63,029 nucleotides of DNA. Source: a virus. The position numbers and the translations under genes were made by a program. The notes beneath the pieces were generated by a model. It was not told where the DNA came from. It saw nothing but the letters and a program-made list of their open reading frames with translations, and did not search any database. The DNA is taken from positions 1-63,029 of IMG/VR virus record IMGVR_UViG_3300017745_000004. One strand, 5' to 3'. Positions 441 to 63,029 of the stretch are shown in pieces. Every line of letters starts with the position of its first letter. The first letter of the stretch is position 1.

Positions 441-698
441 ATGACCGAATTGAATTTTCGCCCAATGCCAACGCCACCGCGTCGCAAGGCCTATGACATT
501 CGCTTTCGTTGCACGCTCAATGGGTGCGATTGGATCGCCCGCCTTTGGCTACGCGACCCTAGCGAAGCTTTCGACGCAATGTATCGTCGCCTCGCCTTTT
601 CTTCGGTGCGCGGAAATGATCGCCCGCGCTACAGCCGAGACTTCTACCGCGTCGTTTCGTGCAATGTTTCCGCCGACCAATCCCGTCCGGTAGCGTGA
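441..698 (+). CDS. small hypothetical protein, 85 aa
   Basis: The product is not recognised. The start is set by a leader CGAAAGGACAAACGCCA directly before ATG; an AAAGGA-type Shine-Dalgarno inside a nearly identical leader precedes several other genes of this phage. The protein is basic and rich in Arg and aromatic residues, has two central Cys, and has no signal peptide or membrane segment. It is the first gene of the ribozyme-punctuated operon, where early host-takeover or anti-defence proteins would be expected. That role is inference only. Confidence 0.7.
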   Translation: MTELNFRPMPTPPRRKAYDIRFRCTLNGCDWIARLWLRDPSEAFDAMYRRLAFSSVRGNDRPRYSRDFYRVVSCNVSADQSRPVA

Positions 699-703
699 AC
701 ACC

Positions 704-802
704 ATGAACGCAATCAATTTCAGCACAAAACGAGTCGGCGGCTTGCGGTTTATCCGCATTGGCCGGTTTTGCTTTTCGTTCTGCATCGCGAGGGCACGCT
801 AA
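704..802 (+). CDS. very small hypothetical protein, 32 aa
   Basis: This short frame fills the gap between its neighbours. It begins 5 nt after the preceding stop, and its TAA shares bases with the next ATG (TAATG), the usual sign of translational coupling. The peptide is basic with a Phe/Cys-rich centre, which might be a short membrane-associated helix. There is no known family, and reality rests on spacing alone. Confidence 0.45.
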   Translation: MNAINFSTKRVGGLRFIRIGRFCFSFCIARAR

Positions 803-978
803 TGGTCCGCGCATACCTTGCAGCACTGCGCGACGCGGTTTGCGTCGCAGTTTCAATCGGTATCGTTATCGCCTTTGCCGCTATCGGTTGTGAAATGAAC
901 CGACGCGACTCCTACACTTCGCACAACGTGAAAGGCTTTCGCACGCCTAGCGTGTCGTATGTGTCACCTGACAAATAG
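802..978 (+). CDS. small single-pass membrane protein, 58 aa
   Basis: The start is the ATG of a TAATG overlap with the previous frame. Residues 10-30 form one hydrophobic segment (Ala/Val/Ile-rich), followed by a polar, positively charged C-terminus, so an inner-membrane protein is likely. The TAG stop is at 976-978, and its final G is also the first base of hammerhead ribozyme 1. Function is unknown. Confidence 0.6.
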   Translation: MVRAYLAALRDAVCVAVSIGIVIAFAAIGCEMNRRDSYTSHNVKGFRTPSVSYVSPDK

Positions 979-1030
979 GACGAAACCGCGCCTAGCGCGG
1001 TCTGGCCGTCACGCGGCCACTGATGAGTCC
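978..1030 (+). ncRNA. type II hammerhead self-cleaving ribozyme, copy 1
   Basis: All core elements are present. CTGATGA lies at 1020-1026. Stem II is GGAC (978-981) with GTCC (1027-1030), followed by GAAA at 982-985. Stem III is 985-990 with 996-1001 around a CCTAG loop. The cleavage triplet GTC is 1000-1002. Stem I is 1003-1008 with 1014-1019. Stems I and III are looped and stem II is open, which defines type II. Predicted cleavage lies between C1002 and T1003, inside the transcript joining the genes at 802 and 1052. The downstream mRNA would start with the stem I hairpin, and the upstream mRNA would end with the stem III hairpin. Confidence 0.96.
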
Positions 1031-1051
1031 AAGTCGAAAGGAAACAACGCC

Positions 1052-1462
1052 ATGACTACGCTTTTCCGCACTGAATCGCATGATCCAAAGACCAACGCGC
1101 AACGCAACCTTTGCGGTCGCACACATTACGTGGATGACGATAATTTGCGATTCCACAAGTCGCGCGTCATCTCCGCGCGAGTCGTCGACAACGGTTTGCT
1201 TTTCGCAATCGTCACAAGCGATGCACTCGACTTTGAGAATCGCAAGCGAGGCTTTCGCTACGTCATATTTGACGTGTTCGGAACTGTGGTTTCGCGTTGC
1301 GATCTAGAACACGCGCGCCGCACATCAGAGCAAGCCACTAAAGATATGTGGGATTGCTTGAACACGCTTGATGCTAAGGCGATCACTCGCGCGGCAATCG
1401 AGCGCGCAGAACGTAACCACGCAAACGAAATGGCCGACCTTCGCGCCAAGTTGGAAGGTTGA
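1052..1462 (+). CDS. hypothetical phage protein, 136 aa
   Basis: This is the first gene downstream of ribozyme 1, with an AAAGGA Shine-Dalgarno in the leader repeated across this operon. The product is soluble. The N-terminal half looks like a mixed alpha/beta domain with short strands around residues 40-85. The C-terminus (about 90-136) is a charged, Ala/Glu/Arg-rich helix with coiled-coil character. It is followed four bases later by the next gene. No family is recognised. Confidence 0.75.
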   Translation: MTTLFRTESHDPKTNAQRNLCGRTHYVDDDNLRFHKSRVISARVVDNGLLFAIVTSDALDFENRKRGFRYVIFDVFGTVVSRCDLEHARRTSEQATKDMWDCLNTLDAKAITRAAIERAERNHANEMADLRAKLEG

Positions 1463-1466
1463 GCCA

Positions 1467-1904
1467 ATGCCTGAATTTGTCTTGAACGATACCCCCGCGC
1501 CGCGTGCTTACGACAAGCTTTCAACGTTCGCGAAGGCATACGTAGAAGCCGTGTTTTTCACCAATGGCGACACGGGCGACGACAACGAGTCGCGGTTGAA
1601 TGATTTGGGAGTCGAGAGACTCACGCGCGAAGCAATCCGCGACATTGCGAGCGATTGCGACTCGTTTCTCGGTTTCATCATGCCGGATGGCTGTTTCGTC
1701 CGGCAATGGCTCGACCGCTTGGCCGAGTCGCATGGCTACTCCGAAGAGCAGGCGGGCCATGACTTTTGGTTTTCGCGTCAAGGCCACGGCGTTGGCTATT
1801 GGGACCGTGGTTTAGGCGACGCGGGCGACGCGCTCCACAAGGCCGCTAAGACGTTCAGCGAAGCTTACTGCGAAGTCTATCGCGGTTGGATTTACCACCG
1901 CTAA
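1467..1904 (+). CDS. conserved phage protein of unknown function, 145 aa
   Basis: The C-terminal half carries a block around GHDFWFSRQGHGVGYWDRG, a pattern I recognise from uncharacterised proteins in early regions of many tailed phages. The core of that family reads DFW-x-R-x-GHG-x(2)-WDRG. The N-terminal half is acidic (FTNGDTGDD). There is no signal peptide. It sits four bases after the previous stop, in the same ribozyme-bounded mRNA segment (1003-2211). Family membership is from memory, and no function is known to me. Confidence 0.8.
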   Translation: MPEFVLNDTPAPRAYDKLSTFAKAYVEAVFFTNGDTGDDNESRLNDLGVERLTREAIRDIASDCDSFLGFIMPDGCFVRQWLDRLAESHGYSEEQAGHDFWFSRQGHGVGYWDRGLGDAGDALHKAAKTFSEAYCEVYRGWIYHR

Positions 1905-1926
1905 CCCTAGAAAGGAAAACACGCCA

Positions 1927-2187
1927 ATGCCTGCACTCAATTGGAATCACAGCAATGTGCGCGAGGTCGCAGACCTCTTGACTCGTCTCAATCCTAGCTT
2001 CGCTTTCACTGTTGATAGAGGCGTGGAGGTAATCAAGCGTCACGTTGAAAGTAACATGACTGCTCCGGGCTATCTCTCAATCTACGGATACTGCGCAACG
2101 GTTTGGGCTGATGACGATTACAGCCTCCACGTCAAAGTGACGGTTGAACCGTACACCATAGCGAAATTCTTGGAATCGCAACGCTAG
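1927..2187 (+). CDS. small hypothetical protein, 86 aa
   Basis: The start follows AGAAAGGAAAACACGCCA, a close variant of the operon's shared leader. The product is a small soluble protein with an N-terminal helix and probable beta strands in the C-terminal half. It is the last gene before ribozyme 2, and its TAG stop (2185-2187) donates its G as the ribozyme's first base. No family is recognised. Confidence 0.7.
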   Translation: MPALNWNHSNVREVADLLTRLNPSFAFTVDRGVEVIKRHVESNMTAPGYLSIYGYCATVWADDDYSLHVKVTVEPYTIAKFLESQR

Positions 2188-2239
2188 GACGAAACCGCGC
2201 CTAGCGCGGTCTGGCCGTTACGCGGCCACTGATGAGTCC
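2187..2239 (+). ncRNA. type II hammerhead self-cleaving ribozyme, copy 2
   Basis: This copy is nearly identical to copy 1. Stem II is GGAC (2187-2190) with GTCC (2236-2239), GAAA is at 2191-2194, stem III is closed by CCTAG, and the GTC cleavage triplet is 2209-2211. Stem I is 2212-2217 with 2223-2228, and CTGATGA is at 2229-2235. The only change is one base in the stem I loop (TTACG instead of TCACG). Predicted cleavage is between C2211 and T2212. It overlaps the TAG of the preceding gene by one base and lies 20 nt upstream of the next ATG. Confidence 0.96.
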
Positions 2240-2259
2240 AACGAAAGGTACTAACGCCA

Positions 2260-2652
2260 ATGCTAACGCCAGAACAAGCCGCCGACATCCGCGCCAGGGA
2301 TGAGGCTTTGCACGCGTGGATGAAAGCACGCAAAACGAATAGCTATCATCCCTCCGAACTGCCGCCCCATATCAACCCGCCGACCAATGACGAGCGCGGC
2401 CAGGTCGAGCTATTCGAGTTTATGCGGGACATACCGGAACGGTATTTCCTCTATATCAACGCAAAGACCAATACCGCCACAACGTGGAACGGGGAAAGGC
2501 TTGGCTCCGCGTCGTTTGGTCGAGAGTACCGCGACAACTTTGGCGGAAAGCGTGTCCCGGTAACCGTTCGCGCGATCAACGGCGCAACCTATCACGGCAC
2601 ATACTTTAAGAGCGCGGGCGACTATGCGCGCGTCAAGAAAGCGAAGGGTTGA
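2260..2652 (+). CDS. hypothetical protein, 130 aa
   Basis: It is the first gene after ribozyme 2, with an AAAGG Shine-Dalgarno in the common leader. The N-terminus is a helix (EQAADIRARDEALHAW). The remainder is polar with several Tyr/Asn/Gly-rich turns, suggesting a small beta-rich domain. No catalytic motif or membrane segment is seen. The sequence between its stop and the next ATG (gagcca) repeats that at 1463-1466, which suggests gene-block duplication followed by divergence. Confidence 0.7.
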   Translation: MLTPEQAADIRARDEALHAWMKARKTNSYHPSELPPHINPPTNDERGQVELFEFMRDIPERYFLYINAKTNTATTWNGERLGSASFGREYRDNFGGKRVPVTVRAINGATYHGTYFKSAGDYARVKKAKG

Positions 2653-2656
2653 GCCA

Positions 2657-2899
2657 ATGGCAACCTTCGACACTGTCACGGGGACCGCGCCTAGCTATTG
2701 GGCGTCGTATTTCATCAATGGCGACGCTTCCGGAATGGAAGATTCCGAAATTGCACAAGCGGACAAGTTCGCCGCGTGGTTAGGCGGTTCAATCGTTAGC
2801 TGCGACGACGCGGGATTCATGCGCTGGCATGACGCGGCGCAGTTCGGCGTTCTCGCGAGCGATTGCCGAACCTATACCGCGCTAATCGAGAGGGATTGA
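2657..2899 (+). CDS. small conserved phage-type protein, 80 aa
   Basis: The central motif YWASYFINGDASGM (about residues 13-26) resembles small acidic proteins found in many phage and plasmid early regions. In those the Y-W-A-x-Y-x-I/V-N-G-D pattern recurs, but no function is assigned that I know. The protein is acidic, Trp-rich and soluble. It starts five bases after the preceding stop and ends three bases before the next ATG, so it is translated as part of one block. Confidence 0.7.
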   Translation: MATFDTVTGTAPSYWASYFINGDASGMEDSEIAQADKFAAWLGGSIVSCDDAGFMRWHDAAQFGVLASDCRTYTALIERD

Positions 2900-2902
2900 C
2901 CA

Positions 2903-3175
2903 ATGCAAAAGTATCGCGCCGACAAATCGGAACATATGCCCGATGGATCAACCGCGTGGTTTGCGGTGTGGATGGGTGGCCCCACATTGGCGAAGGTCGA
3001 GAACTGCCGACTCGATAACATGGCGGGCGACATGCGCCGCACTGTTTACGTCACGGGGGAGCCCGACACGTATTTTTCCATTCCGGCTGTCTGTAGCGTC
3101 GCGGGTTGTCGCGTTAGAGGCTATCTCACGGGCGACGACAACGGGAATTACGTTTTCCGCCATTGCTACTACTAG
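2903..3175 (+). CDS. hypothetical protein, 90 aa
   Basis: The product is a compact soluble protein with four Cys (residues 35, 64, 69 and 88) and many aromatic residues, possibly a small metal-binding or disulphide-containing beta protein. Its TAG stop (3173-3175) shares its G with ribozyme 3, exactly as the genes before ribozymes 1 and 2 do. No family is recognised. Confidence 0.65.
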   Translation: MQKYRADKSEHMPDGSTAWFAVWMGGPTLAKVENCRLDNMAGDMRRTVYVTGEPDTYFSIPAVCSVAGCRVRGYLTGDDNGNYVFRHCYY

Positions 3176-3232
3176 GACGAAACCGCGCGCCAGGTAGCGC
3201 GGTCTGGCCGTTACGCGGCCACTGATGAGTCC
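3175..3232 (+). ncRNA. type II hammerhead self-cleaving ribozyme, copy 3
   Basis: It has the same core as copies 1 and 2: GGAC (3175-3178) with GTCC (3229-3232), GAAA at 3179-3182, GTC at 3202-3204 and CTGATGA at 3222-3228. Stem III differs. It is 7 bp long (3182-3188 with 3197-3203), with an 8-nt GCCAGGTA loop in place of the short CCTAG loop. The fold is kept while loop sequence and length change, which is evidence for selection on structure. Predicted cleavage is between C3204 and T3205. Confidence 0.96.
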
Positions 3233-3253
3233 AAGTCGAAAGGTACTAACGCC

Positions 3254-3436
3254 ATGAATCCCACTGTTTACATTGATGGCCGATTGGCCGACCATATCGG
3301 CGCAATCGGTTTGCGCGAGATTGCCAATCGTGTTTCAACGCTCGCGCTACAGCCGGTTGACGTTATGACGCATGGCGAGTCGCGATATCACTCTGACAAG
3401 CGCATTACTGGCGCGGTAGAAGCGAAGAAGGCCTAA
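3254..3436 (+). CDS. small hypothetical protein, 60 aa
   Basis: The start follows the common leader (AAAGGTACTAACGCC-ATG) downstream of ribozyme 3. It is a short basic protein with a helical centre. There is no membrane segment and no recognised family. With the following micro-ORF it makes up the last, shortest mRNA that ribozyme cleavage would release. Confidence 0.6.
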   Translation: MNPTVYIDGRLADHIGAIGLREIANRVSTLALQPVDVMTHGESRYHSDKRITGAVEAKKA

Positions 3437-3440
3437 CGAG

Positions 3441-3536
3441 ATGACAAACCGCGATTTTGCTATGACGTGCTTTGCCCTCGCTTGCTTGCCATGCGCCGAT
3501 AACGGCGCGGGCGATTCGTGCGACGAACCGCCATAG
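3441..3536 (+). CDS. Cys-rich micro-ORF, 31 aa
   Basis: It begins four bases after the preceding stop, the same spacing used by other genes of this operon, and ends just before the terminator at 3542. The peptide has four Cys (residues 10, 15, 18 and 27) and an acidic C-terminus. Support comes only from position and spacing. Confidence 0.35.
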   Translation: MTNRDFAMTCFALACLPCADNGAGDSCDEPP

Positions 3537-3541
3537 CTTTG

Positions 3542-3613
3542 CCCTAGCGTTGCGACGCTAGGGTTTAAGCCGAAAACGCCGCTAGGGAGTTGATCCTTAG
3601 CGGCGTTTTTTTT
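3542..3613 (+). terminator. tandem hairpins ending the small-gene operon
   Basis: CCCTAGCG (3542-3549) pairs with CGCTAGGG (3556-3563). A second stem, AACGCCGCTA with TAGCGGCGTT (about 3575-3607), is followed by eight T residues. The second hairpin is a textbook intrinsic terminator. The AAAA run on its left flank means it could also act on leftward transcripts. Confidence 0.9.
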
Positions 3614-3920
3614 CGTCCAATTCCGCGCCGCTCATTCGCTCAACCCGCCCCAATGGTACGAAATACCGGGCGACGGATTGAGCGCATGGGCGCGCGCCTA
3701 ATGCGATCCTAGAGGCATGTTGCACTTTTATCGAAATGCCACACCGCGTTTTCGGCCGAGTGGCCGCGCATACCTCGGCGATTGTGGCTTTTGAGCACTG
3801 ACGAGATCGCACTGTCATCAATCCGCCCAACTGCGATTTTGGCGATCTCCAAAACCAACATGCTCTCGAAAAAAAATTTTTCCGCGCGTGCGTGCGCGTG
3901 CTCGCGCGAGCGGACGGGTT

Positions 3921-3989
3921 GCGACCCGCGACGGGGTATTCGACACGTCGCTCCCGCCAGCGCCGTATCTACTCATCGTCGCGGGTCGC
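3921..3989. repeat. 69-bp element closed by a 13-bp perfect inverted repeat
   Basis: GCGACCCGCGACG (3921-3933) is the exact reverse complement of 3977-3989. The 43 bases between can form smaller hairpins (CGCT/AGCG around CCCGCC). There is no T-run, so it is not a terminator. It could be a structured RNA on either strand, or a protein-binding DNA site related to the adjacent ParA-like gene. Confidence 0.6.
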
Positions 3990-4200
3990 ACAGAGCCAGG
4001 AGAGCATGACCCCCGTCTGCTCGTATCCTGGCGAGCCAATCGCTTGGCTCCACGCGCCTCAACGCGTGCTGTTTGGGTGAGCGGCATGGATCGTGAAGCG
4101 CATCGTTCATAACGGTGATGCACAGCTCGTTTGGGGTATGAGCTGATGATCCCTGTGAGCGCAGTTCTCTCGCCCTTGATCCATGCCACTCAGCTCGTTT

Positions 4201-4261
4201 CGCAGAACGTGAATTTTTGGTTTTTCGTTCTGCGAATTTTCGTTTTCTCGTTCTGAGAAAA
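4201..4261. repeat. AT-rich hairpin cluster with CGTTCTG repeats
   Basis: CGCAGAACG (4201-4209) and CGTTCTGCG (4226-4234) form one hairpin, and TTTTCTC (4243-4249) with GAGAAAA (4255-4261) forms another. CGTTCTG and its near-copy CGTTCAG recur on one strand. The low GC in a GC-rich genome suggests a melting or binding site. Confidence 0.5.
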
Positions 4262-4483
4262 GTCGTTCAGAGGGGGTATCGAATTGCACGGGGATGGCGA
4301 GGCCGCACCGACCTTCATATGGCGGGTGCCCTCACCTTGCCTGCTATTCCCCGAATAGCGCCCATCCGCGACACGGCGCTGACCTAGCGCATAGTGGATG
4401 GCCCTGAACACACGTGACGCACGCGGCCGTGGTCTACGGCAACGCCTTTATGGTCAGAGGCATGAGGGGCTCTTGTCTGTGTA

Positions 4484-5131
4484 TCAGGCCAGGTTGTTGA
4501 GCTGCGCAGCGTCGAACTGCGCGAACACGTCCTTCAACCAGCTTCGCGTGTAGCCGCGCAGCACGAAGGACGCCTGGCTTCCGATGAAGTCGTGGAACGG
4601 TTGCGCGACCGCGTCGACGGCCTTCGCCGCTTCCCCATCCAGCCGGGGAATGTTGAGCGCGCCAGCCGGTACATCGTACGCGGTGTCGTCGATATGGTTC
4701 GCGAGCACAACGTGCTTCGATCCTGCGAGCGCTGCCATCACGGGCTTGATCTCGTCGAGCGATTGCGTCGCAGGACCGACGACATGCAGCACAGTGATGC
4801 GCAGCTTGTTCTGCTTCGCCGCGTCGAAGAAGCCGACAACGTCGAGCGTCTTCAGCGTGGGCGACAACAGACCGGCGCACACGTCGACGACGGTCACCTG
4901 GGTCGATGCCAGGTCGTCGAACACCTTGACCTGATCGGTCGACTTGGTGATGTCCACGATCTGCGCGCGGCCAGGAAAGAAACGTTGCAGGCCGCCGCTC
5001 GGGGATTGCGTGTCGAACGCGCGGAAGTCGATGCCGTTGGCACCGTAGTAGCCGAGCAGTGCGCGGCTCAGCATGGTCTTGCCGACGCCACCTTTGTCAG
5101 CGCCGACGAATACCAGATGCGGGATGTTCAT
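4484..5131 (-). CDS. ParA/MinD-like P-loop ATPase, 215 aa
   Basis: The N-terminus reads GADKGGVGKTMLSRAL (about residues 10-25), the deviant Walker A of the ParA/MinD/Soj superfamily with its signature Lys. A Walker A' like stretch (TVVDVCAGL) lies near residue 80. ATPases of this family dimerise on ATP and segregate DNA or position complexes. No parB-like gene is adjacent; the neighbours are a gpZ-like tail gene and a small Cys protein. In an integrating phage, plasmid-like partition is not the obvious role. The last gene of its leftward unit, it faces the structured interval at 3614-4483, which could hold a centromere-like site (inference). Confidence 0.85.
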   Translation of the reverse strand: MNIPHLVFVGADKGGVGKTMLSRALLGYYGANGIDFRAFDTQSPSGGLQRFFPGRAQIVDITKSTDQVKVFDDLASTQVTVVDVCAGLLSPTLKTLDVVGFFDAAKQNKLRITVLHVVGPATQSLDEIKPVMAALAGSKHVVLANHIDDTAYDVPAGALNIPRLDGEAAKAVDAVAQPFHDFIGSQASFVLRGYTRSWLKDVFAQFDAAQLNNLA

Positions 5132-5143
5132 GGGGGTCTCCGG

Positions 5144-5821
5144 TTATGTGCCGCTCGCCGCTTTCGCGCGGATCACGGCTTGTTCGAGTTCGTGCATGAG
5201 CACCGGCCCCAACTGCGTCGGGATCGCCGAAGCAATGTGGTACGTGCTCGGGTTGCCGGGCCGGATCATTTCCTTCGGGATGATCGGACCCCACAATGTT
5301 CTGATCTTGCCGCTCTTGTTGTGCTTCCCGATACGCTTGACGATCTCGGTGGCACCGTTCTTGAAGCGGATAACGAACGCACCCTTGAAGCGCTGCGAGC
5401 GATTCCAAGGCTTGGCGCTCGGGTTCTTCTTGCCTGGCGTCAGCGACCGCGCGAAGTCGCTCACCTTCATCGCCTTGTCGCTCGCAACGATGCGATAGAA
5501 CAGGCGATTGGGATGCGCGCGATCTGCGTGAACCGCTTTCATCACGCGTCCGTACTTCGCACCCGTCGTTTGGACGAGGTCGCGACGAACAGCCGTGAGC
5601 AGCTTGTCGCCGAGCTTGTTGATCGCGTTGTAGAGCGCGCGGTGTTTGACCTCGTCGCCGTACACGTTGAACGCCACGGTGAGGCGCTTCATCGCGTCGG
5701 TCAAGTCGACATAGATCACGCCGCCATGTGACTGCGTGTATGCCGACGCGGGCATCGGCCCCTGTGACGCGCGGTATATCTTCGTGGGGCCGGTGTAGTT
5801 CGTTTGCGTACCGGCCATCAT
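5144..5821 (-). CDS. minor tail protein Z-like (lambda gpZ family), 225 aa
   Basis: The middle of the protein (about 55-100) has the alternating basic helix pattern RALYNAINKL...QTTGAKYGRVMKAV. The C-terminal half has GAFVIRFKNG...IVKRIGK. Both match the arrangement of lambda gpZ and the Minor_tail_Z family, which completes or caps the tail end that joins the head. It lies 40 kb from the rest of the tail genes, in an early-direction operon beside a ParA-like ATPase. That is unusual: it may be a cargo gene reusing the fold, or a displaced structural gene. The assignment is by pattern and is moderate. Confidence 0.6.
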   Translation of the reverse strand: MMAGTQTNYTGPTKIYRASQGPMPASAYTQSHGGVIYVDLTDAMKRLTVAFNVYGDEVKHRALYNAINKLGDKLLTAVRRDLVQTTGAKYGRVMKAVHADRAHPNRLFYRIVASDKAMKVSDFARSLTPGKKNPSAKPWNRSQRFKGAFVIRFKNGATEIVKRIGKHNKSGKIRTLWGPIIPKEMIRPGNPSTYHIASAIPTQLGPVLMHELEQAVIRAKAASGT

Positions 5822-5822
5822 C

Positions 5823-6008
5823 TCACCTTGAAGGCGGGCGCTTCATCAGCGTCGAGCGCCCCACGCTGCGCGCGATGTTGCGCGCGTCGAGCTGCAACGT
5901 CTTCACGAAGCGTTGCGCGTTCTGACGAGCGGCGTCGAAGTTGCCGGTGCGAACGTTCTTGATCGCCTGCGCCGTGAGATCGCGGCGCTTTCCGCAGTTG
6001 CATCCCAT
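5823..6008 (-). CDS. small Cys-motif protein, 61 aa
   Basis: It begins MGCNCGKRR, a C-x-C-G-K motif at the very N-terminus that resembles small metal-binding or capping proteins placed before tail-completion genes. The rest is a basic amphipathic helix (Ala/Arg/Gln-rich). Its stop lies one base from the start of the gpZ-like gene. Function unknown. Confidence 0.6.
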   Translation of the reverse strand: MGCNCGKRRDLTAQAIKNVRTGNFDAARQNAQRFVKTLQLDARNIARSVGRSTLMKRPPSR

Positions 6009-6032
6009 GACGGGCTCCTAGTGGAAACGCGA

Positions 6033-6060
6033 AACCCCGACGCACTGAAGCGCCGGGGTT
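6033..6060 (-). other. leader hairpin before the 6008 gene
   Basis: AACCCCGACGC and GCGCCGGGGTT can pair with one mismatch around a 6-nt loop. It lies between the promoter at 6150-6178 and the first leftward gene. It has no following T-run, so it is more likely a 5' leader structure than a terminator. Confidence 0.4.
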
Positions 6061-6149
6061 CGGAATGTCGGCCAAGGCCGGGGTCGGTTCAGACTAGGCG
6101 ATGCCGGGTAACTCTCGTTCCGGCCCCTCGCCCATTTGTCCGTATGGGG

Positions 6150-6179
6150 AAAATAGGCAGTTGACATCCCAACGTCAAC
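6150..6179 (-). promoter_or_regulatory. leftward sigma-70 promoter with overlapping dyad
   Basis: Read on the minus strand, TTGACG (6178-6173) and TATTTT (6155-6150) are 17 bp apart, a near-consensus promoter for the three genes at 6008-4484. GTTGAC (6160-6165) and GTCAAC (6174-6179) form a dyad across the -35 and spacer. This differs from the genome-wide operator, so another regulator is implied. Confidence 0.7.
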
Positions 6180-6218
6180 TTTTTCCCCTCACAAACTTCC
6201 CTCGGCCGGCTTGTCAGG

Positions 6219-6767
6219 TCACGCTGCTGACAATCCCTTTTGGATCAAGGACTTGGTCCGCAATCCGTGCATCAGCGAGGCCAGGTTCCGCTTGAGATCG
6301 GCCTGGGTGCCGTTGTTGTCGACCACGTAATCGCACATCCAGGGCTCGATTGTGAGGGACGTGCGGGGCTCGCGGTATTCGAGGCGCTCGCACGCGTCGA
6401 TCCAAATCGAGATGTCGAACACGCTGGCGTTCCGCAGGGCGTGAAACTCGCGGGCGTTCCTGTTGCCGACGTAGAGATCGTACTTCGCGAAGATCGCGCG
6501 ACCCAACTTCGTGAGATCGGCCGCATTGCTCTCGGCGATCAGATTGAACCACGTCGAGCGCTCGTTCGCGCGGTCATCGTAGCACTCTTGCGCCGAGGCA
6601 TACTTGCCGGGGTACTTCTCGCAGAAGTACGGAAACACGACACGCTCTGCCATGAACCAGCTCGACGAGACGAACGTCGCGCCATAGTGATCGCGCAGAA
6701 TTTCAGCGGCAGTGTCTTTGCCGTGTCGGCCATGACCGACCACCATCATGCGGTACGGGAAAAGCAT
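6219..6767 (-). CDS. deoxynucleoside monophosphate kinase-like protein, 182 aa
   Basis: The N-terminal P-loop GHGRHGKDTAAE (about 11-22) plus a C-terminal block (FDISIWIDACERLE, about 118-131) match phage dNMP kinase/adenylate-kinase-like proteins such as T4 gp1 relatives. These phosphorylate dNMPs for phage DNA synthesis. Length is normal for the family. The gene lies four bases downstream of the 47-aa gene at 6914, within the leftward replication arm. Confidence 0.75.
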   Translation of the reverse strand: MLFPYRMMVVGHGRHGKDTAAEILRDHYGATFVSSSWFMAERVVFPYFCEKYPGKYASAQECYDDRANERSTWFNLIAESNAADLTKLGRAIFAKYDLYVGNRNAREFHALRNASVFDISIWIDACERLEYREPRTSLTIEPWMCDYVVDNNGTQADLKRNLASLMHGLRTKSLIQKGLSAA

Positions 6768-6770
6768 GGA

Positions 6771-6914
6771 TCAGAATCCGAACATGCGGTAGAGGTCGTA
6801 TCCGCGACCCTGCTTGCAGACCTGGGTCCGCAGATAGCCTGCTCGAGTCTTGATGTTCGTGTCGACAAAGGGGATCGACATGATCGTGCAGAACAGCTCG
6901 TCGAGTGTCTTCAA
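6771..6914 (-). CDS. small hypothetical protein with TTG start, 47 aa
   Basis: In this frame the only start with a good ribosome site is TTG at 6914, preceded on the minus strand by GGAG at seven bases. The peptide is polar with a central DTN and a basic C-terminus ending GYDLYRMFGF. It is followed three bases later by the kinase-like gene. Unrecognised. Confidence 0.55.
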   Translation of the reverse strand: MKTLDELFCTIMSIPFVDTNIKTRAGYLRTQVCKQGRGYDLYRMFGF

Positions 6915-6928
6915 TGGTGGTCTCCGGG

Positions 6929-7060
6929 TTAGTGGATGAAGCAGAGGGCGAAGAGCAGGACTTGAAGAACGATCAGTCCTGCGGCGAACGCGACCGTTTT
7001 GACAAAGCGCTGCGTGGCGACCATGTCGTCGAGATCGCGGGCGTATCCAGACCAGCGCAT
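6929..7060 (-). CDS. small membrane protein, 43 aa
   Basis: Its ATG overlaps the stop of the upstream gene (TGATG), which argues for translational coupling. Residues 22-42 are one continuous hydrophobic segment ending the protein, preceded by a charged N-terminus, so a C-tail-anchored inner membrane peptide is likely. Unknown function. Confidence 0.6.
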   Translation of the reverse strand: MRWSGYARDLDDMVATQRFVKTVAFAAGLIVLQVLLFALCFIH

Positions 7061-7704
7061 CAGCGTCGGCGTCCCTTGCGGTTGGCGCGGCCTTCGTTCT
7101 TGCGTTCGCGCTCTTGCCGCAGATACAGCGCGAAGTCGGGGTTGATGTTCTCGTACACGTCGACCAGGCGATGCAGCGCGTAGCGGACCATGATGCCAGC
7201 CTGCTCGGGCGACCATCGCCATCGCTGCGCAATGGTGCCGACCGTGTGTTCGCGGATGAGCAGATCGCGGAGCAGCTCGCGTTGGACGCGGTCGAGTTGA
7301 TCGTCGACACGCTTCAGCGCGAACGCCGCGTTCAGCATGCGGTCGCTCGGGTCCTTCGGCGCTCCGCCGCAATCGCCCTTCGAGTGCATGCGTCCGCCGT
7401 TGATGCCCTCTTGGTCGAGCATGCGGCGATCCTCCGGCGAGAGAGGCACGGCCATCATCAGGTGATTGATCGTCGCCATCGTGTTCGAGCCGACCGGCGA
7501 GATCGCGAAGTAGTCGCCAGCGTAGTATTCGGCCGCCATGAACTGCGCGTCGCTGATCTTGTCCTTCACGCGATAGCGCAGATAGTCGATGGGACGGCCG
7601 TAGTCCTTGCGGGTCGCCAGGGCGACGCCCTCGGCGGTGCGGACGCGGACCAGCACGGAGTCGGGATCGGTGCCGTCGAGCACGGCGCGCATCGGATCGG
7701 TCAT
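7060..7704 (-). CDS. DUF6456-like protein, 214 aa
   Basis: The protein has an early DAQFMAAEYYAGDY block and a late helix pair (LLRDLLIREHTVGTIAQRW...AGIMVRYALHRLVDVYEN, about 145-185). I associate this arrangement with the DUF6456 domain of alphaproteobacterial regulators. The C-terminal part looks like a helix-turn-helix, and the very C-terminus is strongly basic. A DNA-binding or transcriptional role is plausible but inferred. The stop of the 7704-8039 gene abuts its start. Confidence 0.5.
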   Translation of the reverse strand: MTDPMRAVLDGTDPDSVLVRVRTAEGVALATRKDYGRPIDYLRYRVKDKISDAQFMAAEYYAGDYFAISPVGSNTMATINHLMMAVPLSPEDRRMLDQEGINGGRMHSKGDCGGAPKDPSDRMLNAAFALKRVDDQLDRVQRELLRDLLIREHTVGTIAQRWRWSPEQAGIMVRYALHRLVDVYENINPDFALYLRQERERKNEGRANRKGRRR

Positions 7705-8039
7705 CAGAGGCGATTGTCCGTGTCTGCCGGGGGCTCGGCGGCGTCCACGACCGCCTCGTACTGCTTCAGCTCTTCGGACGCGTTCGCCAGGGCGGGGCAG
7801 CGGTCGCAGTATTCCGAGTTGAGGCGCGCAACGCGTGCGTGCTCTTCGAGCGCCGCTTCGATCACGTCCGCGCTGCCGCTCACGAAGACGACCTCACGGT
7901 TCTCGAAGGTGATGGCGGTGTTCTGCCGCATCTCGCCGGTCTCGCGATCTGACCGCTCGTAGCCGACCATAGACACGATCAGCTCGGGTCGCCGGATCAC
8001 GACCGGGTTCCCTTTCGGTGTGGTGAATTGGATGGACAA
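7704..8039 (-). CDS. hypothetical protein with a Cys pair, 111 aa
   Basis: The frame continues upstream, but the promoter at 8074-8107 would start transcription near 8065. The start chosen is therefore TTG at 8039, preceded by GAGG at eight bases. The product begins SIQFTTPKG, has a beta-rich first half and a C-terminal helix with CDRC (about 85-88). GTG at 8099 is an alternative start. Unrecognised. Confidence 0.5.
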   Translation of the reverse strand: MSIQFTTPKGNPVVIRRPELIVSMVGYERSDRETGEMRQNTAITFENREVVFVSGSADVIEAALEEHARVARLNSEYCDRCPALANASEELKQYEAVVDAAEPPADTDNRL

Positions 8040-14016: not shown

Positions 14017-14493
14017 TCAGGCCGCCTTCTTCGCCGACGTGGAGGGGGCACCCTTCGCGCTGTTCTTCTTCGACGGCTTGGTGCCCCTGGTGCCGACCGC
14101 CGAGACGTGGTTGTTCTTGCGACGCTGCTTCGCCGTCTTCGAGCTGCGGCCGATCAGGTTGCGGCGCGTGTATTCGCGGCGGCGCTTGGTGCAGGCGGCG
14201 GTGTCGCGATAGTTGAAGGTCGAGCTTTCGCCGGTCGGGTCACCGTTCGCGTCGAGTGCGACCTTGACGATGGCCGTCTCTTCATTGATGCGGCGCTTGA
14301 CTTCGGTCAGCGTCACACCGAGCACCTTGCGGTTATGGCCGGGAGACCCGAGCGCATAGACCTTCTTGACCTCGTTCTTCTTCGGCGCTTCGGGCGCGAC
14401 GCGCGCTGCGATCTGCGCCTTCTGGTCGGCCTTGTCCTTGAGCATCTTGCCGACGTGGTCGACCTTCTGCTTCTTGGCGTTCTGCTTCTTCAT
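14017..14493 (-). CDS. highly basic protein, possible nucleic-acid binder, 158 aa
   Basis: Lys and Arg dominate both ends: MKKQNAKKQKVDH at the start, and a C-terminal Lys/Ser/Ala tail reminiscent of histone H1-like tails. The centre (about 40-100) is a mixed domain with YALGSPGHNRKV. It probably binds DNA or RNA electrostatically. An operator lies 16 bp upstream of its start. Confidence 0.6.
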   Translation of the reverse strand: MKKQNAKKQKVDHVGKMLKDKADQKAQIAARVAPEAPKKNEVKKVYALGSPGHNRKVLGVTLTEVKRRINEETAIVKVALDANGDPTGESSTFNYRDTAACTKRRREYTRRNLIGRSSKTAKQRRKNNHVSAVGTRGTKPSKKNSAKGAPSTSAKKAA

Positions 14494-14508
14494 GGTGATG
14501 CGATCCTT

Positions 14509-14527
14509 GTAAGGTGACGGAGGTTAC
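14509..14527. promoter_or_regulatory. operator-like site before the 14493 gene
   Basis: GTAAGGT-N5-AGGTTAC fits the 19-bp pattern, with a diverged right half. It lies between the 14582-14725 gene and the start at 14493, so it could control an internal promoter of this leftward unit. Confidence 0.5.
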
Positions 14528-14581
14528 AGCGCGGGCGCACGGGTGACGGGAGATGGGATCACCCGTGCGGTAGTTGTTGAA

Positions 14582-14725
14582 TCAGTTGGTGCTGATTACG
14601 CGAGAGATCGTCGTGGTCGTGGTGCTCGCCACCACAGTTCGGCCGACCCAGGTGATCGTCCACGCGGTCAAGAAGACCACGCTGAGGCCGATGAAGTGGG
14701 CGTCGAGGAAGTCGATGATCCCCAT
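14582..14725 (-). CDS. small membrane protein, 47 aa
   Basis: The ATG at 14725 lies immediately after the stop of the 14727-15062 gene. One hydrophobic segment (about 12-28, IGLSVVFLTAWTITWV) is followed by a Thr-rich tail. Coherent composition and tight spacing support it. Function unknown. Confidence 0.5.
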   Translation of the reverse strand: MGIIDFLDAHFIGLSVVFLTAWTITWVGRTVVASTTTTTISRVISTN

Positions 14726-14726
14726 G

Positions 14727-15062
14727 TTACGCGGCTTCGGCGGTGTCGGTGGTCTTGGCAGACTTGCCGATCTCGTTCGCGATGCCCTTGGTCGACTGCC
14801 CGATGAGCCTGAGCAACGTGCTGTCGGTCTCGTTGTCGGCGAACATAGCCAGGGCGGCGATGATGAATGCCTGGTCGAAGAGCATCGCTTTCACGATGTC
14901 GCTCTCGACATTGGCGTCACTGAGCTGTTTGACCTCGGTATCGCTCCGCGCCCCGACTGCGACGAGCGCGGCACAGAGGGGCTCGCCAGCCGCCAACAGC
15001 GTCTTCTTCAGCGCGGTCAGAATGATGGCGTTGTTTCCGAGAATGGTATTGGCTTCGAGCAT
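14727..15062 (-). CDS. hypothetical helical protein, 111 aa
   Basis: A mostly helical, Ala/Leu-rich soluble protein without charged clusters until its Lys/Thr-rich end. Several hydrophobic heptads (AIILTALKKTLLAA and KAMLFDQAFIIAALAMF) suggest an oligomeric bundle. Located downstream of the 15137-15541 gene. No family recognised. Confidence 0.6.
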   Translation of the reverse strand: MLEANTILGNNAIILTALKKTLLAAGEPLCAALVAVGARSDTEVKQLSDANVESDIVKAMLFDQAFIIAALAMFADNETDSTLLRLIGQSTKGIANEIGKSAKTTDTAEAA

Positions 15063-15136
15063 AGTAGTCCGTCCTTTTGGTGGCGTGAGGGAATGGCAGC
15101 CGTCAGAGCGCCCCGTTCTCTGACGGCCGATAGACG

Positions 15137-15541
15137 TTACGGCTGCGGCTTCGGCGGCTGCCAGGGCATGGTCGTGACGAACAACCGGCTCTGGAAGGGC
15201 TGCGCGAAGACGGTGACTGCGCGGATGGTGTCGATGTCGCTCTCCGCATCGGCCGCGTTGCCGCGACGATCTGCGCCGACGATCAGGCCTTTGCCAGCGA
15301 ACGGCTGGTGGCCTGTCGCCATGTGAAACCAGCGCTCCGCGTTCTTCATGATGCCCTCGTCGTCGACGAAGATCGCATCGCGCCCCTTGAGGACGCCCGC
15401 GTAGGCCGTGGTGAACGTGGTGACCGGCATGCTCTCATGCGACAGCACGCGGTAGTAGGTGTTGATATCGTCCCCGTCGACCTCGACGTGTTCGATCTTA
15501 CAGGCGAAGGGGTCGATCAGGATGGCTTTGACATTGGGCAT
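15137..15541 (-). CDS. conserved phage-type protein (DUF3846-like N-terminus), 134 aa
   Basis: The opening block MPNVKAILIDPFACKIEHVE recalls DUF3846-type proteins, which begin with a ILIDP-type strand and read-out tyrosine. The C-terminal half contains short strands and a Pro-rich end. It follows the DUF932 gene after a repeat-rich 80-bp spacer. The family assignment is tentative. Confidence 0.5.
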   Translation of the reverse strand: MPNVKAILIDPFACKIEHVEVDGDDINTYYRVLSHESMPVTTFTTAYAGVLKGRDAIFVDDEGIMKNAERWFHMATGHQPFAGKGLIVGADRRGNAADAESDIDTIRAVTVFAQPFQSRLFVTTMPWQPPKPQP

Positions 15542-15559
15542 CGGCGTGACTTTCGCTTT

Positions 15560-15608
15560 GTGAGTCGATTGTGAGTCCTGTGAGTCGAGTTAGGTATTTC
15601 GACTCACA
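15560..15608. repeat. GTGAGTC triple repeat with inverted copy
   Basis: GTGAGTC occurs at 15560, 15571 and 15580. GACTCAC occurs at 15601, so TGTGAGTCGA (15579-15588) and TCGACTCACA (15599-15608) form a 10-bp stem. The loop contains GTTAGGT, an operator half site. Without a T-run it is more likely a regulatory or processing element than a terminator. Confidence 0.6.
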
Positions 15609-15625
15609 AGATCAGCGTCAAGGTG

Positions 15626-16843
15626 CTAGGCGGCGAGGCCGAAAAGCTTGCCACCGAGGGTTTCGAGTTCGACGCGGTCATCAGTATTGGGAAGCTCCCG
15701 AGCGATGGCGGTGACGCCTTGGGTCACGTCCCAGATCGTGCGCGCCTTGCGGCCCTCTTCCCTCTCTACGGCTTCGAGGACGGAGCGAGCACGGCTGCGC
15801 GAGAGGCCGCGATTGTTGAGCCAGTCTACCATCTCGTCGTCGTCCTGCGCGATCTGCGCGGCCTTGGCGTTCTGTACGGTCTGTACAATCTTCGCGTCTG
15901 ACGCCTTGGCGTACTCGATCAGGGCGGGCTCGACTTGGCGAATCCATCGCTCCGGTGCGCCCTTGGTATGCGAGATGCGGACGGTTTCGATGTTGTCCGC
16001 GCCCCAGATGATGCGGTTGCAGCACACGCCACGGAAGAGGAAGGCCTTGAGCCAGAGCGACGACTTGCCGACCTCGGACTGCGAGATGATGAAGCCGCGA
16101 TACATCACGTCGTCCATGCCGTCCTTCGTCTTGCCGACGACGATGGGGCGATGCGGATCGGTGAGGAAGATGAACATGTCGCGGTCGCTCATGAAGAGCG
16201 TGGTCGTGTCCGTGGTGACCGGGTGGAAGGGGTCGTACATCATGGTCGACCATGACATCATGCCGGGCACGCGCCAGGCCGCGTCGTTCGAGACGCCGTC
16301 ACCGGCGATCTTGCCCACGGCTTCGATCACTTCGTGGTTCGGGATACGGCCATAGTCGGGGCCGGTAGCCGCTAATAACTGCTTGTCCGACGTGTAGAAC
16401 TTAGCCTCGGGATTGGAGCGGTTGTTGCGGAGGCCGTACATCACGGCGTCGGCGACGATGGGCGACGGAAGCGTGCGCAGATAGGACGGCGGAGCACCCG
16501 CGAGCTGCGAGAGCTGGCCGAACGACCAGTGCGAGAAGTTGAAGCTCTCGAAGCCATCGCCGACGTTCAAACCGACGCGGAGCTTGTTGAAGTCGTCACG
16601 AGTCTGCACTTCGGGCGTAAGCAGCTCGACGTTCTTGACCGCTACGACCTTCTCGCGGGAAACAAGGGACTGAGACCTCGCGTGCCTCCACATATCACGG
16701 AGAGACAGGAAGCGCTCGTCGGCCGGGCGACGCATCCAGTTCATGGAGGCGTCCATGATGGTGGTGCCCTTGGAAACGTCGACGCGGCCCGCGTTGATCG
16801 GCTGAGCGTCGACAGTCTGAGCGAGAGAAACAACGGTATTCAT
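15626..16843 (-). CDS. DUF932 family phage/plasmid protein, 405 aa
   Basis: The DUF932 family is common in phages and conjugative plasmids, with unknown biochemical role and a frequent link to replication genes. The matches are the YGLRNNRSNPEAKFYTS stretch, the FHPVTTDTTTLFMSDRDMFIF centre, and the block RGFIISQSEVGKSSLWL followed by FRGVCCNRIIWGA. Length is typical. The start uses the repeated leader CCGAAAGGACTAAACGCC-ATG. It is the first gene leftward from the divergent promoter region at 16900-17000. Confidence 0.82.
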   Translation of the reverse strand: MNTVVSLAQTVDAQPINAGRVDVSKGTTIMDASMNWMRRPADERFLSLRDMWRHARSQSLVSREKVVAVKNVELLTPEVQTRDDFNKLRVGLNVGDGFESFNFSHWSFGQLSQLAGAPPSYLRTLPSPIVADAVMYGLRNNRSNPEAKFYTSDKQLLAATGPDYGRIPNHEVIEAVGKIAGDGVSNDAAWRVPGMMSWSTMMYDPFHPVTTDTTTLFMSDRDMFIFLTDPHRPIVVGKTKDGMDDVMYRGFIISQSEVGKSSLWLKAFLFRGVCCNRIIWGADNIETVRISHTKGAPERWIRQVEPALIEYAKASDAKIVQTVQNAKAAQIAQDDDEMVDWLNNRGLSRSRARSVLEAVEREEGRKARTIWDVTQGVTAIARELPNTDDRVELETLGGKLFGLAA

Positions 16844-16899
16844 GGCGTTTAGTCCTTTCGGTTGCGTTGGGGCTCCCGCTGTGTGTGTGTCAGGAGCTT

Positions 16900-16918
16900 G
16901 GTAGGAGTTCTACCTGAC
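16900..16918. promoter_or_regulatory. operator in the divergent DUF932/RuvC-like promoter region
   Basis: GGTAGGA-N5-ACCTGAC fits the 19-bp pattern with a perfect right half. A second half site, GGTAGGA, lies near 16957. The region separates the leftward arm from the rightward replication arm. Confidence 0.6.
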
Positions 16919-16970
16919 GATTCTAGCAAACGCAATCCCCTCACGAAGTTATTTTTGGTAGGAGAAAAAG

Positions 16971-16999
16971 TTGACAGAACTAACACGCCGACCATATGG
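16971..16999 (+). promoter_or_regulatory. rightward sigma-70-like promoter
   Basis: TTGACA (16971-16976) is consensus. ATATGG follows at a 17-bp spacing. It lies 32 bp upstream of the RuvC-like gene and would start the whole rightward replication unit. Confidence 0.6.
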
Positions 17000-17030
17000 A
17001 TCGGTCCAATCGTCAAAGCAGTGGGGAAAT

Positions 17031-17504
17031 ATGAAAGCTTATCTTGGGCTCGACCTCGGCACGTACATGGGGTGGGCGCGCACCGACCTGTTCCCTGGGA
17101 GCGGAGGGGTCTTCTTATCAGGCGCATGGGACTTCGACATCACCCGGTTTGATGCGCCGCCCGTCCGCTACCAGAAGTTCGAAGTGAAGCTGCGCGAGCA
17201 CTGCGTGCTCGGGCTCAACATGGTCTTCTACGAAAAGATTCTGCGCCACAAGGGCACGACAGCGGCCCACGTCTACGGCGCATTCCTGAACAAGCTGCAT
17301 GAGGTCTGCGACGAATACGGCGTTCCGTACATCGGCCTCAGCGTTCAGGAGATCAAGAAGTTCGCCACCGGCAAGGGCGGCGGACCCCAGGCCACCAAGG
17401 ACAAGATGATCGAGGCCGTCAAGCGTTGGGGCCACAACCCCCAGAGCGACGACGAGGCCGATGCCATCGCGATCCTCAAATGCGGATTGGAGACTAAGCT
17501 GTGA
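17031..17504 (+). CDS. RuvC-like Holliday junction resolvase, 157 aa
   Basis: The N-terminal GLDLGTYMGWA carries the first catalytic Asp of the RuvC/RNase H fold. A Glu in FYEKIL (about 65), the TGKGGGPQATKDKM segment and the terminal DDEADAIAIL (about 143-152) complete the acidic set. It should resolve branched DNA in recombination or before packaging. The ATG at 17031, with GGGGA before it, is preferred to upstream in-frame starts that lie on the promoter. Its stop overlaps the next gene. Confidence 0.88.
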   Translation: MKAYLGLDLGTYMGWARTDLFPGSGGVFLSGAWDFDITRFDAPPVRYQKFEVKLREHCVLGLNMVFYEKILRHKGTTAAHVYGAFLNKLHEVCDEYGVPYIGLSVQEIKKFATGKGGGPQATKDKMIEAVKRWGHNPQSDDEADAIAILKCGLETKL

Positions 17505-18037
17505 CTACCGAAACCATTGTGATGACTGACCGCACGCCGGTCTCGTTCTGGAAGAAGATCAACCCGCTCTGGTGGCTGGTCGGTCCCGATGGCTGGAACG
17601 TCCCCGACGTGAACAACGGCGAGCCGTACCTGCCGGAAGTGACGAACATCTGGCTCCGCCGCTTCTACTGGTTCATCTGTCGCAACCCGCTGATGAACTT
17701 CGTCGGCTACGTCCTCGGCGTCGAGGACAACAACTACCGCGTCGAGGGCACCGCCCCCGTCCTGCTCACCACCTGGCGCGACGCTACGCCGCCGAAGACC
17801 GGCTGGAAGTGGGCGCTGCTATGGCCGCAGATTAGCTGGCCCGCGTTGCTCATGGCGATGCTGTGGATCGTGCTCACGTCCTTCCACCCCGTGTTCTACA
17901 TCCCGTGGGTGTGGGCGATGTTGAAGTTCGCAGGACCCCTGCCCTTCATCTCCTACAACGGCGCGGTCGAGTTCTACATGGGTTGGCGTCCGGCCTCGGG
18001 TGGGTTCGGCACAAAGATCGTGCTGCACAATGACTGA
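17501..18037 (+). CDS. phage membrane-associated protein, 178 aa
   Basis: It starts GTGACTACC, overlapping the previous stop by four bases. The protein is Trp-rich. Segments about 108-130 and 133-150 are hydrophobic and likely membrane-spanning, and an N-terminal NPLMNFVGYVLG stretch may lie in the membrane surface. I recall similar proteins (tail ending FG-x-KI-x-hydrophobic) in early regions of podo- and myoviruses, without known function. Confidence 0.6.
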   Translation: MTTETIVMTDRTPVSFWKKINPLWWLVGPDGWNVPDVNNGEPYLPEVTNIWLRRFYWFICRNPLMNFVGYVLGVEDNNYRVEGTAPVLLTTWRDATPPKTGWKWALLWPQISWPALLMAMLWIVLTSFHPVFYIPWVWAMLKFAGPLPFISYNGAVEFYMGWRPASGGFGTKIVLHND

Positions 18038-18416
18038 GAGCAAGCTGGTAGCCCGACCGCTGACCGAAAAGCAACGCATCGCTCTTCTCGCCGTGGCGCG
18101 CGGAGGGATACGCGTGGTCGAGCGCGTCGGTCAACACGGCGCTCAATACTACGAGATGTTGGCCCCTGGTGGTCATCAGATCGGCGGACAGTTCGCGGCG
18201 CTCAAGCGTCGCGGCTTCGTCTGTTGGAAGCGAGGCCCTGCGTTGACCATCGCCGGAGCGTTCGAGCTGTACTTCGACGTGTCACTATTGGACTGCCCGG
18301 CCGACGCCGACTGCCGCACGACTTGCTGTTGTGGCGACCTTGTCGAGCACCACGGTATGGGCAGCGGCCACAGCCCCGTGCCGATGCACGACTATTATTG
18401 CGAAGGCAGAGCGTGA
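18030..18416 (+). CDS. hypothetical protein with Cys-rich C-terminus, 128 aa
   Basis: The start is the ATG at 18030, overlapping the preceding stop. The N-terminal 60 residues (LTEKQRIALLAVARGGIRVVE...GGQFAALKRRGFVCW) look like a small winged helix that reads DNA. The C-terminal part has CPADADCRTTCCCGD and several His, consistent with metal binding. Function unknown. Confidence 0.6.
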   Translation: MTESKLVARPLTEKQRIALLAVARGGIRVVERVGQHGAQYYEMLAPGGHQIGGQFAALKRRGFVCWKRGPALTIAGAFELYFDVSLLDCPADADCRTTCCCGDLVEHHGMGSGHSPVPMHDYYCEGRA

Positions 18417-18520
18417 GCATCCGCGAGAACATTGTAGCGCTCGGCTACCTGGCGGTGCCGAGCGGGTGGATCGTGCTGCTCGCCGTCCTGGCTGTCGGGC
18501 ACTATCTCGGAAAGTGGTGA
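18413..18520 (+). CDS. 35-aa membrane peptide, GTG start
   Basis: GTG at 18413 overlaps the TGA of the previous gene, and the frame ends on the base before the helicase ATG. It encodes a short basic N-terminus and one hydrophobic segment (IVLLAVLAVGHYLG). The exact fit between neighbours supports it. Confidence 0.55.
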   Translation: MSIRENIVALGYLAVPSGWIVLLAVLAVGHYLGKW

Positions 18521-31900: not shown

Positions 31901-31909
31901 GAGAGCGTG

Positions 31910-62975: not shown

Positions 62976-63029
62976 CCCGTGCGATCAAGAGTGAGCAAAT
63001 TCGCTAAAACGTTGCCGACTTTCGGGGGC
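62976..63029. repeat. terminal direct repeat, right copy
   Basis: Identical to positions 1-54. Joining the ends makes one continuous intergenic region of about 560 bp between the leftward gene at 62906 and the rightward gene at 441. Confidence 0.9.

Follow-up and report, generated by a model that had tools for sequence, protein, structure and literature searches.

What would a phage gain from placing self-cleaving RNAs between the genes of a single operon? This question is raised by a virus record in IMG/VR, IMGVR_UViG_3300017745_000004, whose 63,029 nucleotides (the whole stretch analysed, henceforth the window) carry three copies of the type II hammerhead ribozyme between consecutive groups of small genes. 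We found that the whole is best explained, with a probability of roughly 0.65, by non-pseudoknotted hammerheads that would cut the transcript between a stop codon and the next ribosome-binding site (RBS), dividing the operon into blocks with protected ends. That the RNAs cut in the cell, and to what use, we infer from their sequence, structure, conservation and position.

A strict pattern (GACGAAAC...GTC...CTGATGAGTC) returned three matches from the window and not one from 100 dinucleotide shuffles. An earlier note on this DNA had placed three full-core copies at these same sites (Table 1), and there the pattern, the predicted fold and a covariance model (R1, described below) agree. Read as RNA, each unit has the order GGAC-GAA-(stem III hairpin)-C-(stem I hairpin)-CUGAUGA-GUCC, i.e., the type II permutation. 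All three copies carry the core CUGAUGA and GAAA, the pairs A15.1-U16.1 and G10.1-C11.1 and the cleavage triplet GUC, with a 4-bp stem II (GGAC/GUCC) and 7 bp each in stems III and I; everything that defines a type II hammerhead (core CUGANGA/GAAA, A15.1-U16.1, an NUH triplet, stems I and III closed, stem II open) is thus found in 3/3. The three-helix hammerhead is both the minimum free energy and the centroid structure of every copy (-27.4, -27.4 and -29.6 kcal/mol for copies 1, 2 and 3, with z of -3.7, -3.0 and -3.2), and these folds, together with the R1 matches, bear out the earlier assignment to type II with stems I and III closed and stem II open.

For a wider view we used a viral sample obtained by two pattern scans of viral loci (291 type II hammerheads, loci L004-L253); all counts given for it, here and below, are among the matches listed. 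GC-rich hairpins between genes could in principle be ordinary attenuators or terminators that only resemble hammerheads. However, neither hairpin is followed on its 3' side by a U-run on the coding strand, the unpaired core nucleotides are invariant in 25 diverse sequences whose stems vary, and an exhaustive search of all loci returned 327 elements on real sequence against 1 on reversed sequence, so that this explanation is scarcely credible. The three elements are almost certainly genuine and, to judge from their sequence, catalytically competent type II hammerheads.

The earlier note had proposed a scan with the Rfam Hammerhead_II model (RF02276) and would have given up the identification had all three scores fallen below threshold. 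Taken literally this is what happened, as the copies scored 27.5, 30.1 and 28.8 bits against a gathering cut-off of 37; yet the corresponding E-values in a 2.4-kb search (0.0017-0.0083) were significant. In six other viral loci with clear hammerhead arrays, 3 of 21 Hammerhead_II matches reached 37, and because the other 18 also fell short, we attribute the low scores to a limit of that model, which misses the subgroup of the window copies; its cut-off does not define the class. Given this under-scoring we built the covariance model R1, trained on 25 viral hammerheads that share a geometry and lie outside the window, and searched with filters off. R1 recognised all three copies as homologous to other type II hammerheads at E of about 1e-16 (scores in Table 1), while its next best match in the window reached 13.9 bits (E 0.12). 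In the 25 training sequences we counted 124 double-sided changes over 16 pairs (covariation 0.853, compared with 0.171 when shuffled and at most 0.117 when slid). These sequences had been preselected by a pairing filter, meaning that their 100% pairing is partly by choice, but their covariation far exceeds the effect of that filter.

Conservation in a diverged phage points the same way. Using the window terminase we found a related phage, represented by a 4.4-kb fragment (L124; IMGVR_UViG_3300044691_000538) with a terminase 73% identical, in which the orthologue of g3 (66-67% amino-acid identity), the gene preceding ribozyme 1, ends in TAG and is immediately followed by a hammerhead (R1 57.2 bits, E 3e-14). 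Relative to the window, its stem I carries two compensatory double changes, and its stem III has lost one base pair on both sides or, if compared without gaps, shows five concerted changes. No pair is broken; in the core, the changes are confined to two positions where they are allowed, N7 (U to C) and H17 (C to A). The two sites are alike in their position after the TAG of g3, in stem II (GGAC/GUCC) and in the tail CCAAGUC; they are unlike in stems I and III, which changed in concert, in the number of copies (one in the 4.4-kb fragment) and in what follows, as the DNA homology extends no further than the ribozyme 3' end and an unrelated gene comes next.

A search for further relatives of g3 found L124 only, and the exact window stem I was found nowhere else in the viral contigs. 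Annotated phages yielded no relatives of the ribozyme region and none of g7, while g5 has distant homologues in Rhodobacter phages and others. One phage sharing g5 (L128; 70%) has a weaker candidate at 7787-7855, after a TGA and 1.3 kb downstream of g5 (R1 31.5 bits, E 8e-7), in which one additional U separates core and stem II. The g3 product itself (positions 681-854, minus strand, in L124) is a short, membrane- or lipoprotein-like protein; its N-terminus is hydrophobic, it contains a lipobox-like IGC and has no family match, and its conservation with the L124 protein is strong around RDSYTSHNV.

Comparison across the viral sample separated two structural groups, since a long stem II and a pseudoknot between loop I and the tail were mutually exclusive (Fisher p = 6e-28; 5e-15 with one element per locus). 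Elements with a stem II of at most 3 bp have loops of 9-12 nucleotides (nt), and their loop I pairs with its own tail beyond chance: the mean longest helix is 4.28, compared with 3.02 for swapped tails (0/200). In the GGAC subgroup, which includes the window copies, the corresponding values are 2.34 for own and 2.35 for swapped tails, and loop I is compact, mostly U-N-A-N-G (U in 70/71, A in 55/71, G in 48/71). A loop I-tail pseudoknot was also sought in the window copies themselves, where the longest possible helix is 2-3 bp and a pseudoknot was taken to need at least 4 pairs. A stem II of 4 bp, an A in front of it and a U at the start of loop I place them in the non-pseudoknotted subgroup. 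They share with RF02276 the closed stems I and III, the open stem II, the core CUGANGA/GAAA and the GUC triplet, but RF02276 is pseudoknotted with a very short stem II, whereas the window copies have 4 bp in stem II, a 5-nt loop I starting with U and no pseudoknot. Their group may rely on an alternative tertiary contact; about 40% of hammerheads have been estimated to use the pseudoknot, and the others may use other contacts (PMC3088659). We found no description of a non-pseudoknotted second group in the open-access literature, which given that limit is weak evidence. We also considered whether stem II stays the same across copies to allow pairing between halves of different ones, and rejected this, as the GUC had been imposed by the pattern of the first scan and stem II varied in the second.

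The elements also keep a regular position relative to the genes. As the earlier note had observed, each window ribozyme lies between genes on the coding strand; specifically, it overlaps the upstream TAG by 1 base and is followed by AAAGG and by an ATG 20-22 nt 3' of stem II. In the viral sample, the stop codon of an open reading frame (ORF) of at least 40 codons starts between -8 and +1 of stem II in 198/285 cases, with offsets -3 and -2 alone accounting for 110 of the 285. A start codon follows stem II, at a median of 24 nt, in 267/291, and a Shine-Dalgarno-like sequence precedes it in 210 of those 267. It follows from this placement that cleavage would never remove the stop codon or the RBS. 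The A preceding stem II is invariant in the window subgroup (154/154), and the tight fit to the stop codon on the 5' side may be partly due to this A, which UAA or UAG easily supplies. No report of such stop-codon fusion was found in the open-access literature, again weak evidence given that limit. An ATG at 959 lies in frame with g4, and no stop interrupts that frame across ribozyme 1 (959-1462); a longer g4 is possible in principle, and the frame through the ribozyme is probably due to chance.

Three hammerheads in one operon had been thought uncommon, a claim that does not survive the comparison. Perreault et al. reported in 2011 that prophage genes, singly or in short blocks, often have several hammerheads at their flanks; they tested three tandem arrangements, and the triple array of Agrobacterium tumefaciens cleaved in vitro and in Escherichia coli (PMC3088659). 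For that array, which flanks ardA in a prophage, and for those of Clostridium scindens and Azorhizobium caulinodans, mRNA processing was proposed, as here; they were demonstrated to cleave (PMC3088659), whereas the window array is known from sequence alone. It also differs from them in that its flanks are uncharacterised small ORFs and that it consists of three near-identical type II units overlapping stop codons. Among the matches listed, 58 of 168 loci hold at least two hammerheads, adjacent copies lie a median of 516 nt apart, and 0 of 64 multi-copy loci have copies on both strands. Whole viral records carry 11 (G006, G014), 9 (G004, G015), 8 (G007) or 7 (G003) copies; those with eleven form one-strand runs of about 5 kb each, at 14426-19244 in G006 (IMGVR_UViG_3300036832_000364) and at 2574-7559 in G014. 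By the definition of a multi-hammerhead (pro)phage array as at least two copies on one strand flanking the genes of one phage transcription unit, the window probably contains one. The window array itself is a further case of a published kind, and its claimed novelty mostly falls; more interesting than the triple array are the stop-codon fusion, the second structural group, the arrays of eleven and the copying within genomes.

The evidence for such copying begins in the window, where the three units match at about 90% over 83-88 bp, a stretch that reaches from the stop codon to the start. Duplication of whole gene blocks carrying the ribozyme was considered as its source and rejected, as g4/g7, g5/g8 and g6/g9 are not convincingly related. 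In the viral sample, stem I similarity is 0.547 within a locus compared with 0.364 between loci (0/300 permutations). As the stems are so alike within a locus even though they are free to vary, we conclude that the units were copied or homogenised within the genome.

A hammerhead cuts after H17, leaving a 2',3'-cyclic phosphate on the upstream product and a 5'-OH on the downstream one. Cuts after C1002, C2211 and C3204, as expected from this chemistry, would split the operon transcript. Each upstream product would keep its stop codon and end in a 3' stem III hairpin with a 2',3'-cyclic phosphate; each downstream product would have its 5'-OH directly at the base of the 7-bp stem I hairpin, with the RBS left whole behind it. 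One long phage transcript would in this way yield the blocks g1-g3, g4-g6, g7-g9 and g10-g11, whose ends would resist exonucleases, with decay and expression uncoupled and no host RNase needed. The earlier note had described a similar scheme, parts of which need correction. Its transcript start at 441 is the first ATG and not a mapped 5' end. It gave every piece a 5' stem I and a 3' stem III hairpin, but only the two middle fragments would have both, as the first would lack the 5' stem I and the last would end in the terminator. Finally, nothing in our analysis shows that the operon is early, as the note had labelled it. Segmentation with end protection is, on balance, the use that we consider probable.

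Several points weigh against it. A simple role in which cleavage unmasks the RBS was considered and rejected, as the predicted unpaired probability of the RBS barely changes. In hosts with RNase J, moreover, a 5'-OH end can promote decay and not protection (as for glmS). To these we add the Rfam scores below the cut-off, and the finding that some hammerhead-like RNAs tested in 2011 were inactive (PMC3088659). We nevertheless prefer segmentation to RBS unmasking because the predicted accessibility of the RBS does not change. A related explanation is that cleavage down-regulates or times the downstream genes: an mRNA with a 5'-OH would decay faster, and a ribosome at the fused stop codon would delay folding, such that cleavage would report upstream translation. 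The base shared with the upstream stop in the window would suit this, as would the stops that abut or overlap stem II in the sample (the 110/285 at offsets -3 and -2) and the terminating ribosome, which would cover GGACGAAA. However, the downstream product would begin flush with a 7-bp hairpin and keep a good RBS of the same accessibility after cleavage, and the conserved A before stem II (154/154) alone favours an adjacent UAA or UAG. We regard down-regulation as unlikely. The terminating ribosome may exert control.

Circular mRNAs could also arise if the hammerhead or a host ligase rejoined the ends of each excised block (1003-2211 and 2212-3204), as these ends carry the two halves of a hammerhead whose stem II strands are identical, and the end groups are those used by RtcB in established chemistry. 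But no RtcB was found in the phage, stem II is not uniform within arrays, and although both block lengths are multiples of 3, so are 32% of 139 adjacent viral pairs among the matches listed, which is the chance level; spliced or circular products were sought in 2011 and none were found (PMC3088659). We prefer segmentation because of this lack of frame preference, of RtcB and of any such product in 2011, and consider circles very improbable. The elements might, alternatively, be relics or passengers, i.e., a stop-ribozyme-RBS repeat spread by recombination with no gain from cleavage. Three near-identical stop-to-ATG units between unrelated genes, the greater likeness of copies within than between viral loci and the end of the L124 homology at the ribozyme 3' end would all be expected of such a repeat. 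Spread by copying is, however, compatible with function, and the exact stop-to-start placement on one strand only speaks against idle passengers, as does the finding that diverged phages have retained the core and, with concerted changes, the pairing. Because the L124 stem changes are concerted, we prefer segmentation here too and hold passenger status to be quite unlikely. A broader proposal can be put forward only tentatively: stop codon, type II hammerhead and RBS may form a general phage RNA-end module, in two structural versions and copied up to 11 times per genome, with the bases common to ribozyme and stop codon perhaps tying cutting to the termination of translation.

The layout of the operon is summarised in Table 1. 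The three copies lie on one strand between consecutive ORFs, the genes are tightly packed, and a single terminator is predicted at the end; a promoter scan gave one weak match, compared with 2.1 expected.

Table 1. Features of the hammerhead-bearing operon in the window (RBS, ribosome-binding site; R1, covariance model of this study).
Feature	Position	Strand	Details
Gene block 1	441-978	+	g1 441-698, g2 704-802, g3 802-978; small ORFs, no family match
TAG stop of g3	976-978	+	Overlaps first base of ribozyme 1
Hammerhead ribozyme 1, type II	978-1030	+	Pattern, fold, R1 65.5 bits; stem II 978-981/1027-1030; GAAA 982-985; stem III 985-1001; predicted cut 3' of C1002; stem I 1003-1019; CUGAUGA 1020-1026
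RBS AAAGG (1037-1041) and ATG (1052) of g4	1037-1054	+	On the predicted downstream cleavage product
Gene block 2	1052-2187	+	g4 1052-1462, g5 1467-1904 (phrog_1915, function not known), g6 1927-2187
TAG stop of g6	2185-2187	+	One base common to ribozyme 2
Hammerhead ribozyme 2, type II	2187-2239	+	Anatomy as ribozyme 1; predicted cut 3' of C2211; R1 65.8 bits
Gene block 3	2260-3175	+	g7 2260-2652, g8 2657-2899 (weak DUF6926), g9 2903-3175
TAG stop of g9	3173-3175	+	One base common to ribozyme 3
Hammerhead ribozyme 3, type II	3175-3232	+	Loop III larger; predicted cut 3' of C3204; R1 63.6 bits
Gene block 4	3254-3536	+	g10 3254-3436, g11 3441-3536
Predicted operon terminator	3541-3613	+	Two consecutive strong hairpins, -17.2 and -28.5 kcal/mol; the second (3572-3610) runs into eight T

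Given the 54-bp direct repeat at its termini (1-54 and 62976-63029), the record most probably represents a complete circular assembly, 62,975 bp in length. Among its genes are those for a terminase, portal, tape measure, tail sheath protein, primase-helicase, DNA polymerase, lysozyme and tyrosine integrase, from which we conclude that it is a contractile-tailed, possibly temperate phage; the integrase lies at 31907-33034, in a phage with its own DNA polymerase and primase-helicase. The same phage (99.6-100% over the compared stretches; L131, L132 and L140) is present in three unrelated public assemblies, namely Phycicoccus jejuensis NRRL B-24460, Streptomyces iakyrus NRRL ISP-5482 (a 63,072-base contig) and an Eggerthellaceae metagenome-assembled genome from roe deer; a further match (L125) stands at 99.65%. 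Its presence in unrelated assemblies suggests a contaminant phage in sequencing material.

The role of hammerheads in bacteria and phages has been a question since 2011. The array described here and the sample of 291 elements yield rules that can be tested, i.e., placement between stop codon and RBS, restriction to one strand, arrays of up to eleven, copying within the genome and two structural versions, one of which the current Rfam model detects poorly. Should cleavage indeed set the ends of phage mRNAs, these elements would represent an RNase-independent way of dividing operons that current annotation undercounts.

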